Source: Desulfovirgula sp. (GTDB lineage: Bacteria > Bacillota > Desulfotomaculia > Desulfotomaculales > Desulfovirgulaceae). From it: a DNA stretch of 61,380 nucleotides. Positions 48,776 to 54,037 of the stretch are shown piece by piece. Every line of letters starts with the position of its first letter. Position 1 is the first letter of the stretch. The notes beneath the pieces were generated by a model. The model had not been told where the DNA came from and did not search any database. It saw nothing but the letters and a program-made list of their open reading frames with translations. Location: NCBI GenBank assembly GCA_020725525.1, contig DYEX01000096.1, positions 1 through 61,380 of the forward strand. Direction: 5' to 3'. Position numbers and translations under genes: made by a program.

Positions 48776-50794
<2,019 letters not shown>

Positions 50795-50815
50795 TAGACA
50801 ACTGGCAATGGGAAC

Positions 50816-50847
50816 GCCCCTGCCTCGTCGGCAGGGGCATTTTTTTC
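50816..50847 (+). terminator. Terminator of hppA
   Basis: GCCCCTGC pairs with GCAGGGGC around a 7-base loop, followed by ATTTTTTT. Confidence 0.9.
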
Positions 50848-50947
50848 GAGGGTCCTGTGAATGCGTGAACGGGCACCAGCGGATTGGAAGTCTCTTGTTC
50901 TATCCAGCCGGACTACTGTATGATTCGCTTGCCTATTTACTACCGCA

Positions 50948-51232
50948 TTAACCGAGCAACCCCTGGATGGAAAGGCGGCGCCATACGCCTTTGCCGGTGA
51001 TGTCTATGCTCACCCCATCCGGGGCTACCCTGGCATTTTTGGGGAGAAACACCTTGAGGCCGTTGGCCTCGGTCTGGTGGAACCTTTCCACATCGGCAGG
51101 TATGCCTGCATACACGGCAGGCTCATAGGTCATGCCTCCTCACCCGCCGCAGAGTTCCATAACCAGGGTGATGGTATCGGTTTGTTGCAGTATATAGTCC
51201 CTGGCCTCGTCGGAAACATGTACCTGAACCAC
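50948..51232 (-). CDS. Small probable selenoprotein, CC/Se-motif type
   Basis: Read through an in-frame TGA (51142-51140), this gene encodes about 94 residues. The N-terminus VQVHVSDEARDYILQQTDTI leads to TLVMELCGG-Sec-GG, then MTYEPAVYAGIPADVERF, NGLKVFLPKNARV and DITGKGVWRRLSIQGLLG. Both halves are in one frame and together match the layout of a small clostridial family annotated as CC/Se-motif (seleno)proteins. Without readthrough only a tail with an ATG at 51133 would be made. The GTG at 51232 follows AAAGGAG at 9 bp. A SECIS-like hairpin lies after the TGA. The gene sits 28 bp after a FrmR-like repressor gene, probably in one operon. Biochemical role unknown. Confidence 0.78.
51104..51142 (-). 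promoter_or_regulatory. UGA codon with candidate bacterial SECIS hairpin
   Basis: In the mRNA the UGA (51142-51140) is followed 17 bases later by GCCUGC, loop CGUGUAU and GCAGGC (51122-51104). The 6-bp stem, a G within the first two loop bases and a loop about 23 bases from the UGA fit the published bacterial SECIS rules. Confidence 0.65.
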
Positions 51233-51260
51233 AAAAACCACACTCCTTTCGAGCGTTTTG

Positions 51261-51545
51261 TTAAGTGAACTTGCGAAAGACCTGCATGAATTCAGCCATT
51301 ATGTCTTTAAGCTCCTTGCCTCCCGCCAGGCCCTCCATGATCTCGTCGGCCAGGTGGCAGGCCAGGGTGGTCATGGCCACCTGGCTGATGGCCGCTTTGA
51401 TGGCCGCCAGCTGGATAACCACTTCGCCGCAGTCGCGCTGGTCCTGGATCATCCTGGACACTCCCCGCACCTGTCCTTCAATGCGTTTTAACCGGGCCAG
51501 CAGTTCCTCCTGTACTTCACGCCGGTAAACCGGGTCTTTTTTCAT
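51261..51545 (-). CDS. CsoR/RcnR/FrmR-family repressor, FrmR-like ligand set
   Basis: A 94-residue all-helical DUF156 repressor. Putative sensing residues are Cys39 (DQRDCGEV), His64 (LACHLADE) and Glu68. The spacing of 25 and 29 matches CsoR Cys-His-Cys positions, but the third ligand is Glu, as in FrmR of Salmonella, so copper sensing through Cys3 geometry is unlikely; formaldehyde, another electrophile or another metal is possible. An additional Cys63 precedes the His. It is transcribed from its own TTGACA promoter overlapping an operator-like palindrome, so it probably autoregulates. The ribosome site is AAAGGAG. Confidence 0.9.
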   Translation of the reverse strand: MKKDPVYRREVQEELLARLKRIEGQVRGVSRMIQDQRDCGEVVIQLAAIKAAISQVAMTTLACHLADEIMEGLAGGKELKDIMAEFMQVFRKFT

Positions 51546-51592
51546 GAAGCCTGCTCCTTTCCCGGAAGGTTAAATCACAACTTCAAAGCCCC

Positions 51593-51642
51593 ATACCCCG
51601 TATGGTATATAAAAGTTTACTATCAGTCCTGCAGTTTGTCAA
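51593..51642 (-). promoter_or_regulatory. Promoter and operator of the repressor-selenoprotein operon
   Basis: Reading the minus strand: TTGACA (51642-51637), 17 bp, TAAACT (51619-51614). A palindrome ATACC-N6-GGTAT at 51593-51608 covers the expected start point. GC-tract palindromes with ATACC/GGTAT arms are the usual operators of CsoR/RcnR/FrmR proteins. Confidence 0.7.
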
Positions 51643-51667
51643 GAGCAAGTCCCTAGTTAATATGGTA

Positions 51668-51724
51668 TTGACAATCTGAAAGGACGCGGGTAATATTATA
51701 TATGCGATATACCCCTACGGGTAC
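51668..51724 (+). promoter_or_regulatory. Divergent promoter and operator of the polyferredoxin gene
   Basis: TTGACA (51668-51673), 17 bp, TAATAT (51691-51696). Just downstream lies ATACCCCTACGGGTAC (51709-51724), a second operator-like palindrome placed near +7 to +22, where a bound repressor would block transcription. Confidence 0.7.
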
Positions 51725-51796
51725 CTGTAAAGGGGCATAAAAGTTTTTTCAGTAAGTCAGCAATCTTGTAGATGGTCCGGAAAAGGAGGAATCACC

Positions 51797-52480
51797 ATGC
51801 TCAAGGAAAAACAGAAACAGCGCAAACTAAGGCAAAGCTTAACCTGGGTGGGCCTGCCCCTGGTGGCTGTGCTGGGATGGTTCTACCCCTGGCTGGGCTT
51901 TTTGCTCCTCGGGTGTATGGTCGGGGCGGTGGGGGTGGCGGCCTTCCGGGGACGGGCCTGGTGCGACTGGATGTGCCCCCGGGGAGCCTTTTTCGATCTC
52001 TTTGTGCGACCCCTGTCTCGGAAGAAAGCCATCCCTGCCTTTTTCCGCAATCGAGCGGTGCGGGTTTTCATGCTGGGCTTAATTTTCACCATGATCGGCG
52101 TCCAGTGGTACCTGGCCGGTGGAGATGTAGCGGCCATGGGACTGGCCCTGGTGCGTATACTTACTGTTACCACCGTGGTCGGAATTATCCTGGGACTGGT
52201 TATTCATCCCCGGATCTGGTGTCACATCTGCCCCATGGGTACCCTGGGCCACTGGCTCTCCCGGGGCAAGGAACCCCTCTCCATCAACCAAACCTGCACC
52301 GTCTGCCAGGCCTGCGCCCGGGCCTGCCCCATGCAGCTGAAACCCTATGAGTACCGGCTCGGGGGAATTATGGGTGATCATGACTGTGTAAAATGCGGCT
52401 CCTGCGTGGCCGCCTGCCCCCGCCGCGCCCTGTCCTTCAGCTCCGGTCACGGGGAAAAGGAAACCGGCCTTGCGGCCTGA
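51797..52480 (+). CDS. NapH-like membrane polyferredoxin
   Basis: A 227-residue membrane Fe-S protein. It has about four helices (TWVGLPLVAVLGWFYPWLGF, VRVFMLGLIFTMIGVQWYLA, ILTVTTVVGIILGLVIH) and two CxxxCP motifs on the membrane face (WCDWMCPRGAF, WCHICPMGTLG), as in NapH and CcoG relatives. Two 4Fe-4S clusters lie at the C-terminus (CTVCQACARACP, CVKCGSCVAACP). It probably passes electrons from the quinone pool to a partner protein; no partner oxidoreductase is adjacent. It is divergent from the FrmR-like repressor and likely controlled by it. The start ATG follows AAAGGAGGAATCACC. Confidence 0.9.
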   Translation: MLKEKQKQRKLRQSLTWVGLPLVAVLGWFYPWLGFLLLGCMVGAVGVAAFRGRAWCDWMCPRGAFFDLFVRPLSRKKAIPAFFRNRAVRVFMLGLIFTMIGVQWYLAGGDVAAMGLALVRILTVTTVVGIILGLVIHPRIWCHICPMGTLGHWLSRGKEPLSINQTCTVCQACARACPMQLKPYEYRLGGIMGDHDCVKCGSCVAACPRRALSFSSGHGEKETGLAA

Positions 52481-52558: not shown

Positions 52559-53941
52559 TCAGAGACCTTGTGCCTTTTTGAGCCGTTGGCGCTCCGCCCA
52601 GAGCCGGTCGGCCACCCGGCCCCACTCCCGGGAGCGACCGTCCAGGCAGGCGGCAATGGTGCCCTCCAGGACGGTGTCCGCCCCTTCGTGGGTCGGGCGG
52701 GCGCCGGATTCTTTGACGATGTCCCTCAACGCCTGGGGTACGTCGATAATCGGGCAGGGACGGAGCAGGTTATCGTGGAAGGGCTGGCGCTTCTGGTAGG
52801 CTGCGAACAGGGGCGAGCGCAGTACTTCGATCAGGCTCTTATCATTAATGTTGTCCACGGCAAAGTGGACGAAGGCGCAGGGTTCCACTTCCCCGGCGGC
52901 GTTGATGTGAAAGTAGCGCCGTCCCCCGGCAATGCACCCCTCCACCAGTTCGCCGTCGTTCCAGAAGTCGGCAATCTGGATGGGTTTGTGGGTGCGGATG
53001 TAGGGTATGCGTTCCGCCAGATATGCCCGTTGTTCCGGAGTAACCATCAAATCCACATTGGGGTTGCGGCCGATGGGAATGTAATGGAATGTCCAGCCGT
53101 AAATAACCCCTTTATCAATAAGGAAATCGATAAACTCGTCGCTGGTTACTTCCATCACGTTCTCCCTGGTGATGGTAATGGAAACGCCAAAGGCCGCGCC
53201 CCTTTCCCGCAGCAGGTCCATGGCCCGCATGACCCTGTCAAAGGTTCCCGGGCTGCGCCGGGCATCGGTGCGTTCCCGCCAACCTTCCAGGCTGATGGCC
53301 GGGGAGAAGTTTCCCACCTCGATAATTCTATCGGCCATTTTTTCATTGATCAGCGTACCGTTGGTGTAGGCCATGAAGGCCATATCGTGATGTTTGGCCA
53401 TCAGGTCGAACAGGTGCGGGTAGACCAGGGGCTCTCCGCCCGAAAAGACTATCCAGTAGATGCCCAGCTCTTTGGCTTCATTGAAGAGGCGGTCCAGCCG
53501 TTCCGGGCTCAAGGAGTTTTTGGGGGAATATTTGCCCGCCCAGCAGCCCTCGCAGGCCAGATTGCAGGCGCTGGTGGGATCTACCAGGATAAAGTTGGGA
53601 ACACTCACCCCCAGTTTTGCGGACATACTCCTCTGGCGGGGAATACCGAAAATCATGGCGTTCATAAACCAGTTATACGCCAGGCGGTTACGCACGTTGG
53701 GATGGAGATTTTGGGCCAGCCTGTTGACGTACTCCCGGATGGCCGGGTTTTCCCGGTAGGCGGCGGCTACCGTTTCCACCTGACGCTTGTGTCGTTCTTG
53801 AATGGCCAGTAACTTCACCAGGTTTAAGAGACGCGGAAAATTCGTTTCCGGGTTTTTACTCACGTAGGCCAGAACGTTTTGAGAAAGGTGCGCGGCAAGA
53901 AAATTTTTAGCTCGTCCCGGTTTGGAAGTCCCAGGATGCAT
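52559..53941 (-). CDS. Radical SAM protein with C-terminal SPASM-like cysteines
   Basis: A 460-residue protein. An N-terminal helical region of about 125 residues precedes the radical SAM core with cluster motif TSACNLACEGCWAG, then IVFSGGEPLVYPHLFDL and SLEGWRERTDARRSPGTFDR. Downstream cysteines (LVEGCIAGGRRYFHIN, VEPCAFVHFA, LLRPCPIID) resemble a SPASM or twitch extension holding an auxiliary cluster. The substrate is unknown. The ATG at 53941 has ACAGGAGG upstream; the longer frame to 53983 is less likely. The leader upstream is unusually structured. Confidence 0.9.
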   Translation of the reverse strand: MHPGTSKPGRAKNFLAAHLSQNVLAYVSKNPETNFPRLLNLVKLLAIQERHKRQVETVAAAYRENPAIREYVNRLAQNLHPNVRNRLAYNWFMNAMIFGIPRQRSMSAKLGVSVPNFILVDPTSACNLACEGCWAGKYSPKNSLSPERLDRLFNEAKELGIYWIVFSGGEPLVYPHLFDLMAKHHDMAFMAYTNGTLINEKMADRIIEVGNFSPAISLEGWRERTDARRSPGTFDRVMRAMDLLRERGAAFGVSITITRENVMEVTSDEFIDFLIDKGVIYGWTFHYIPIGRNPNVDLMVTPEQRAYLAERIPYIRTHKPIQIADFWNDGELVEGCIAGGRRYFHINAAGEVEPCAFVHFAVDNINDKSLIEVLRSPLFAAYQKRQPFHDNLLRPCPIIDVPQALRDIVKESGARPTHEGADTVLEGTIAACLDGRSREWGRVADRLWAERQRLKKAQGL

Positions 53942-54037
53942 AAACAGCAACCTCCTGTAAGTTTTTTGCATAACCGTTTGCATTTACTGGCTGGGGGAGA
54001 ATATCACTAAACTGCCTGGCGGTGGTCGTCCCCCATC

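Follow-up and report, generated by a model that had tools for sequence, protein, structure and literature searches.

An in-frame TGA almost certainly encodes selenocysteine in a Desulfovirgula gene of the CC/Se motif family, whose product is predicted to adopt an IscA-like fold

A minus-strand gene at positions 50948-51232 of the 61,380-nucleotide stretch of Desulfovirgula sp. DNA analysed here (the window) carries an in-frame TGA, which, on the comparison of homologous sequences, almost certainly encodes selenocysteine (Sec) and makes the gene a selenoprotein gene. Ordinary gene finders split this gene in half, and our analysis corrects the mis-called gene and provides its uncharacterised family with a predicted fold and an alignment that places Sec on a known metal ligand. 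Taking the full proposal together, we lean modestly towards a selenoprotein with an IscA-like fold, in which a CxxU motif would form a site for a soft metal(loid) or electrophile, be reset by thioredoxin and be co-expressed with a CsoR-type repressor.

The gene comprises 94 codons and a stop, running from a GTG at 51232-51230 to a TAA at 50950-50948 on the minus strand. Its TGA, at 51142-51140, falls at residue 31, and once it is read as Sec a single open frame extends from 51262 through the stop codon ending at 50948, as expected from the first-pass annotation, which had seen one continuous coding frame split by a TGA. Cys28 and Sec31 are the sole Cys/Sec residues of the 94-residue protein. 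The GTG at 51232 is likely to be the start codon, since an AAGGAG ribosome-binding site (51248-51243) lies 10 nt upstream and an ATG occupies the same position in a congener (G061, locus L043), in line with the N-terminus and ribosome site that had been proposed upstream of the TGA. By comparison, the mechanical ORF list holds just the C-terminal 61 codons (50948-51133), counted from an ATG at 51133-51131, which is what a standard gene caller had been said to report. The further claim that this downstream part lacks a ribosome site stands only with regard to spacing: AGGAGG does precede the ATG, yet at a distance of 1 nt.

Conservation of the sequence extends across the TGA. The TGA is present in 7 of 7 genomes compared, all 46 aligned proteins have Cys or Sec in the corresponding column, and homologues align across the TGA and extend upstream of ATG 51133 rather than beginning there, whereas two congeners (G064 and G065) have Ala in place of the Met of this decoy ATG. 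Against each of five congeners, codons 2-30 carry 1 to 7 differences, every one of them synonymous (0 non-synonymous), and codons 32-94 give a pN/pS of 0.05-0.22; against G066, from another genus, the ratios are 0.20 and 0.48 for the two parts, respectively. Purifying selection therefore acts on both sides of the TGA. If instead the TGA were a true stop or an error, with a 61-residue protein translated from ATG 51133, the standard ORF call and the AGGAGG just ahead of that ATG would be accounted for; we give this reading very little probability, given that seven related genomes retain the TGA with selection on either side, that the ATG is not conserved, and that Sec machinery, Cys homologues and a covarying hairpin are all found. 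A pseudogene, a sequence error and a 61-residue gene were considered and rejected on the non-conserved ATG, the Cys/Sec column and the selection.

The genome of the window encodes the machinery for Sec insertion, which the first-pass annotation had named as a check. Profile searches identify selA (636.7 bits), an adjoining selB (375.6 bits) and selD (405.7 bits), together with a tRNA-Sec (74.9 bits, anticodon UCA). The tRNA-Sec model is passed by three tRNAs here and also matches in 14 of 14 control genomes, exceeding its cut-off in 5 of them; ARAGORN assigns the best of the three as tRNA-SeC(UCA) and the other two as tRNA-Cys and tRNA-Ser. A tRNA-Cys(GCA) of ~94 nt in the same genome (L002:1500-1593, plus strand), unusually long for tRNA-Cys, passes the tRNA-Sec model with 52.6 bits (cut-off 47), and the selD gene has an in-frame TGA of its own (L016, G000:C148:2016-2939, minus strand).

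Across the genomes sampled from the phylum, selA exceeds the cut-off in 256 of 398. A strong selA accompanies the family in 75 of 78 TGA-bearing genomes, all at E 5.7e-92 or better among the matches listed (Fisher's p 2.8e-13, a value that ignores relatedness). As for the three others, G348 has selB (267.3 bits) without selA, and in G276 (90% complete) and G284 neither selA nor selB is over the cut-off, the family match of G284 being partial at 51 positions. By comparison, selA is over the cut-off, with an equally strong match, in 10 of the 12 genomes whose family members all lack a TGA, the weaker matches among no-TGA genomes being those of G279 (2.5e-66) and G357 (just 6.7e-22). The presence of selA thus tracks the family more than it tracks the choice of Sec or Cys.

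With Cys in place of Sec, the window protein scores 95.5 bits (E 1.5e-27, cut-off 40) against the NCBIfam model NF041239, the "CC/Se motif family (seleno)protein" (Moor_selen_rel), over positions 2-91 of the 91 in the profile, and the genome itself, with the TGA left in, scores 88.9 bits. The protein also shares the CxxU motif, nothing places it outside the family, and the earlier guess at a CC/Se motif protein was correct. NF041239 is listed in PMC13188914 as a predicted selenoprotein family with the motif CxxU, noted from Moorella thermoacetica, in a table entry that gives no function; this paper alone was returned by a full-text literature search for the accession. Because the literature already lists this family as predicted selenoproteins, the window gene is an additional member of a published but uncharacterised family and not a discovery; our analysis adds the predicted fold, the alignment of Sec with Cys35 of IscA, the missing CxC and the gene neighbours. 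A Pfam search of the window protein gave no credible family, the sole row up to E 1 being TnpW (E 0.2), and a PADLOC search gave no match up to E 1.

NF041239 matches occur in 45 of 113 genomes of the class and in 90 of 398 genomes sampled from the phylum, where 78 of the 90 have at least one TGA-bearing match and 12 have only stop-free matches. The 157 loci that were read (71 of 82 class match rows and 86 of 129 further phylum rows) comprise 108 with a single TGA, 11 with two and 38 with none. Homologues with Cys at the TGA position, another check that had been proposed, are indeed found alongside those with TGA. Cys stands at -3 from the Sec site in just 34 of the 108 single-TGA members, and the CxxU pair is consequently not general. 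TAA or TAG interrupts two of the 38 no-TGA loci, both in G019; these two copies (L073, G019:C13) are apparently decaying in a genome that has several family members. The genome of the window contains a divergent second member without a TGA on contig C93 (L020 / L050:4959-5270, minus strand), with the motif GGCCC, a score of 49.5 bits and a different gene setting. A pattern scan of the genome contigs yielded 11 loci out of 54 pattern matches, none beyond the results of the whole-genome searches.

Downstream of the TGA, a candidate bSECIS hairpin is found at 51122-51104 (minus strand), at the place and with the features previously described for it. Its 6-bp stem, GCCUGC paired with GCAGGC, begins 17 nt past the TGA and closes a 7-nt loop, CGUGUAU, with G at loop position 2; the distance from UGA to loop is 23 nt and the hairpin alone has a free energy of -9.1 kcal/mol. 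These values lie within all the bSECIS limits given in the Fig. 2 legend of PMC13188914, namely a stem of 4-16 bp, a loop of 3-9 nt, a G at loop position 1 or 2, a UGA-to-loop distance of 16-37 nt and an MFE at or below -7.5. Free-energy z-scores of -1.00, -0.42 and -2.03 for segments of 41, 45 and 57 nt, respectively, reveal that free energy alone does not single out the hairpin, and its support is comparative. An Rfam search of 50700-51800 gave a sole match, nse_sRNA, at 22.8 of 75 bits, which we took as chance.

As the stem lies in the codons of a conserved E-P-A-V-Y-A-G segment, which could mimic conservation of the hairpin, genes with TGA were compared with genes with Cys. Hairpin scores cover 107 of the 108 single-TGA genes and 25 of the 38 no-TGA genes; pairs were counted in the 85 of 107 TGA genes with Pro at +7 (77 distinct) and in 18 of the 25 Cys genes (15 distinct), numbering from the T of the TGA as 0 and using shuffled means, which take no account of relatedness and do not amount to probabilities. 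All 77 TGA hairpins have a standard pair at 24-34 (G-C 50, A-T 15, G-T 12) against a shuffled mean of 67.3, and 76 of 77 have one at 25-33 against 67.5, whereas the 15 distinct Cys hairpins keep these pairs in 3 and 13 cases, respectively. The TGA genes thus retain both pairs through linked base changes. Pairs at third codon positions hold in 75 of 77 for 23-35 (mean 72.4) and in 58 of 77 for 20-38 (mean 52.8); the out-of-stem pairs 18-40 and 19-39 show no excess over shuffles among the 77 TGA hairpins. The loop starts with CGTG in 71 of these 77.

Residues at +8/+11 after Sec are Ala-Ala in 41 sequences, Thr-Val in 15, Val-Thr in 7, Ala-Val in 7 and others in 7, mostly combinations that preserve the stem, and the hairpin is a clear case of a coding-region RNA signal that limits the residues of its protein. 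Best-hairpin energies average -8.7 kcal/mol in the 107 TGA genes and -5.7 kcal/mol in the 25 Cys genes; a value of -7.5 kcal/mol or better is reached by 69 of 107 and 7 of 25, respectively, the remaining 38 of 107 TGA genes being weaker, and 97 of 107 and 13 of 25 have a G at loop position 1 or 2. At least one Cys gene (L096) retains the hairpin, which would be expected if Cys recently replaced Sec there. Comparison therefore supports the decoding of the UGA as Sec, the role of the hairpin and the family assignment, each as read from sequence.

The AlphaFold2 model of the window protein, built from 46 sequences, has a mean pLDDT of 92.7, and a Foldseek comparison with the PDB places IscA and SufA best (top E 2.1e-4). 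VIA-align superposes the model on IscA (1r94) with a Z of 10.2 over 85 residues at 2.6 A. Residue 31 falls on IscA Cys35 in the hhalign alignment (E 6.3e-4, yet a probability of 27.9%), and a PDB search with the sequence profile gave none up to E 10. Judging from the model, the window protein very probably has the IscA/SufA fold; a limited literature search did not find this predicted fold in print for the NF041239 family. C35, C99 and C101 are common to the four A-type carriers compared, whereas the window protein has no counterparts of C99 and C101 and thus lacks the C-terminal CxC that completes the three-Cys set with Cys35; it has no Pfam match to such a family and scores 14.5-14.8 of 136.2 bits against the SufA model. 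Owing to the missing CxC ligands, a role as an ordinary Fe-S carrier is unlikely. The HesB-like selenoprotein TIGR01911 is also small, and a kinship with the HesB/IscA group would fit the fold. In the motif list of PMC13188914, however, its motif is UxGP, distinct from the CxxU of the window protein, and this identity was rejected, TIGR01911 being absent among matches up to E 10.

The neighbour in the window's genus is a regulator. A gene of the CsoR/RcnR/FrmR superfamily (51261-51545, minus strand; PF02583, 77.2 bits) lies 28 nt upstream of the selenoprotein gene on the same strand. The sensor had been called FrmR-like in the first-pass annotation; the superfamily holds, but FrmR specifically goes too far, the score being under the NCBIfam cut-offs for RicR (56.1/175 bits), FrmR (NF008464, 38.5/133 bits) and RcnR (35.4/138 bits). 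With respect to E. coli FrmR, Cys39 and His64 presumably correspond in the sensor, which has no Pro2. The sensor adjoins the family gene in every one of the six genomes of the genus, where it is probably its operon partner, and is found beside it in no other locus fetched. As a hint of the role, as it had first been taken, it therefore applies within that genus and tells little about the whole family, and a family-wide role for a CsoR neighbour was rejected. The operon is flanked by a radical-SAM/SPASM gene (52559-53983, minus strand) and a divergent NapH-like ferredoxin gene (51797-52480, plus strand). G066 keeps the ferredoxin and radical-SAM neighbours, while the sensor gene is absent.

Other partners appear among the genes within 4 kb of the 157 loci; for one branch, each neighbour cluster was scanned through a single representative. 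In 11 of 157 loci, nine in genome family f31 and two in f60, the next gene downstream on the same strand, at -20 to 96 nt, encodes a thioredoxin. Same-strand ArsR genes at a distance of 150 nt or less are seen in 6 of 157 loci from five genome families, against 0.06 expected from the ArsR density in 16 genomes, picked since most have such neighbours, or about 0.4 if each kb holds one gene and each locus has two adjacent genes; within 4 kb, the observed 12 of 157 compares with 3.3 expected. ArsR, SBF-type (PF01758), ArsP_1 or heavy-metal P-type ATPase genes occur within 4 kb at 20 of 157 loci in 15 genomes, PF01758 being the family that includes the arsenite exporter ACR3. The window gene itself has no thioredoxin, ArsR, SBF-type, ArsP_1 or heavy-metal P-type ATPase neighbour within 4 kb.

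These genomic partners suggest a testable chemistry. SelB and tRNA-Sec would decode UGA 51142 as Sec, directed by the hairpin at 51122-51104, and Sec31 would occupy the place of the IscA ligand Cys35 in the predicted fold, with Cys28, three residues ahead, as its thiol partner. The CxxU selenol-thiol pair may then bind or reduce a soft metal(loid) or electrophile and be re-reduced by the thioredoxin system; in the window's genus, the gene would be co-expressed with the CsoR-type repressor, which would sense the same stress and leave the DNA under it. We put this function forward tentatively, as a possibility somewhat short of an even chance.

Two other functions were weighed against it. A general thiol-disulfide oxidoreductase that works with thioredoxin and has no metal role would suit the CxxU motif and the thioredoxin genes directly downstream in two genome families, but it appears unlikely: the loci read from the window's class show no thioredoxin neighbour, the partner of the window gene is CsoR-type, metal(loid)-type genes lie within 4 kb at the 20 loci above, and the minority of members with Cys at -3 fits poorly with such a pair. 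Still less likely is an iron or Fe-S carrier that contains Sec, with iron or a cluster held by Sec31 and Cys28, perhaps across a dimer. The IscA fold and the position of Sec31 at Cys35 are consistent with it, as are the Cys pairs in which some distant members end (e.g. L086 and L082), whereas the window protein has Cys28 and Sec31 alone and its SufA score is far under the cut-off.

Outside the window, 11 loci in 10 genomes of the phylum have a side-by-side pair of in-frame TGA codons at the Sec site (L208-L218, e.g. L211:2995-3285, plus strand) and possibly encode Sec-Sec proteins. A wider proposal, which falls only a little short of even in our estimation, is that an IscA-fold selenolate family serves in thioredoxin, ars-type, CsoR-type and aldehyde:ferredoxin oxidoreductase circuits, that adjacent UGAs would both be decoded (Sec-Sec) with one downstream hairpin, and that the hairpin would dictate the residue pairs at +8/+11 family-wide. 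If both codons are decoded, this branch would test how SelB handles consecutive UGA codons. A limited literature search did not find the branch in print. Three of the 11 proteins, with Cys for Sec, score 45.6, 33.7 and 45.7 bits against NF041239, and the model of a double-TGA protein gives a weak match to IscA (Z 5.5). A stem follows the TGA pair at each locus; numbered from the first TGA, its pair 23-34 is kept in 11 of 11, by three types of base pair, and each of the six remaining pairs in 10 or 11 of 11. All 10 genomes have selA, and in seven of them genes for aldehyde:ferredoxin oxidoreductase and iron-hydrogenase-like proteins lie nearby, four also with a ThiS-type gene.
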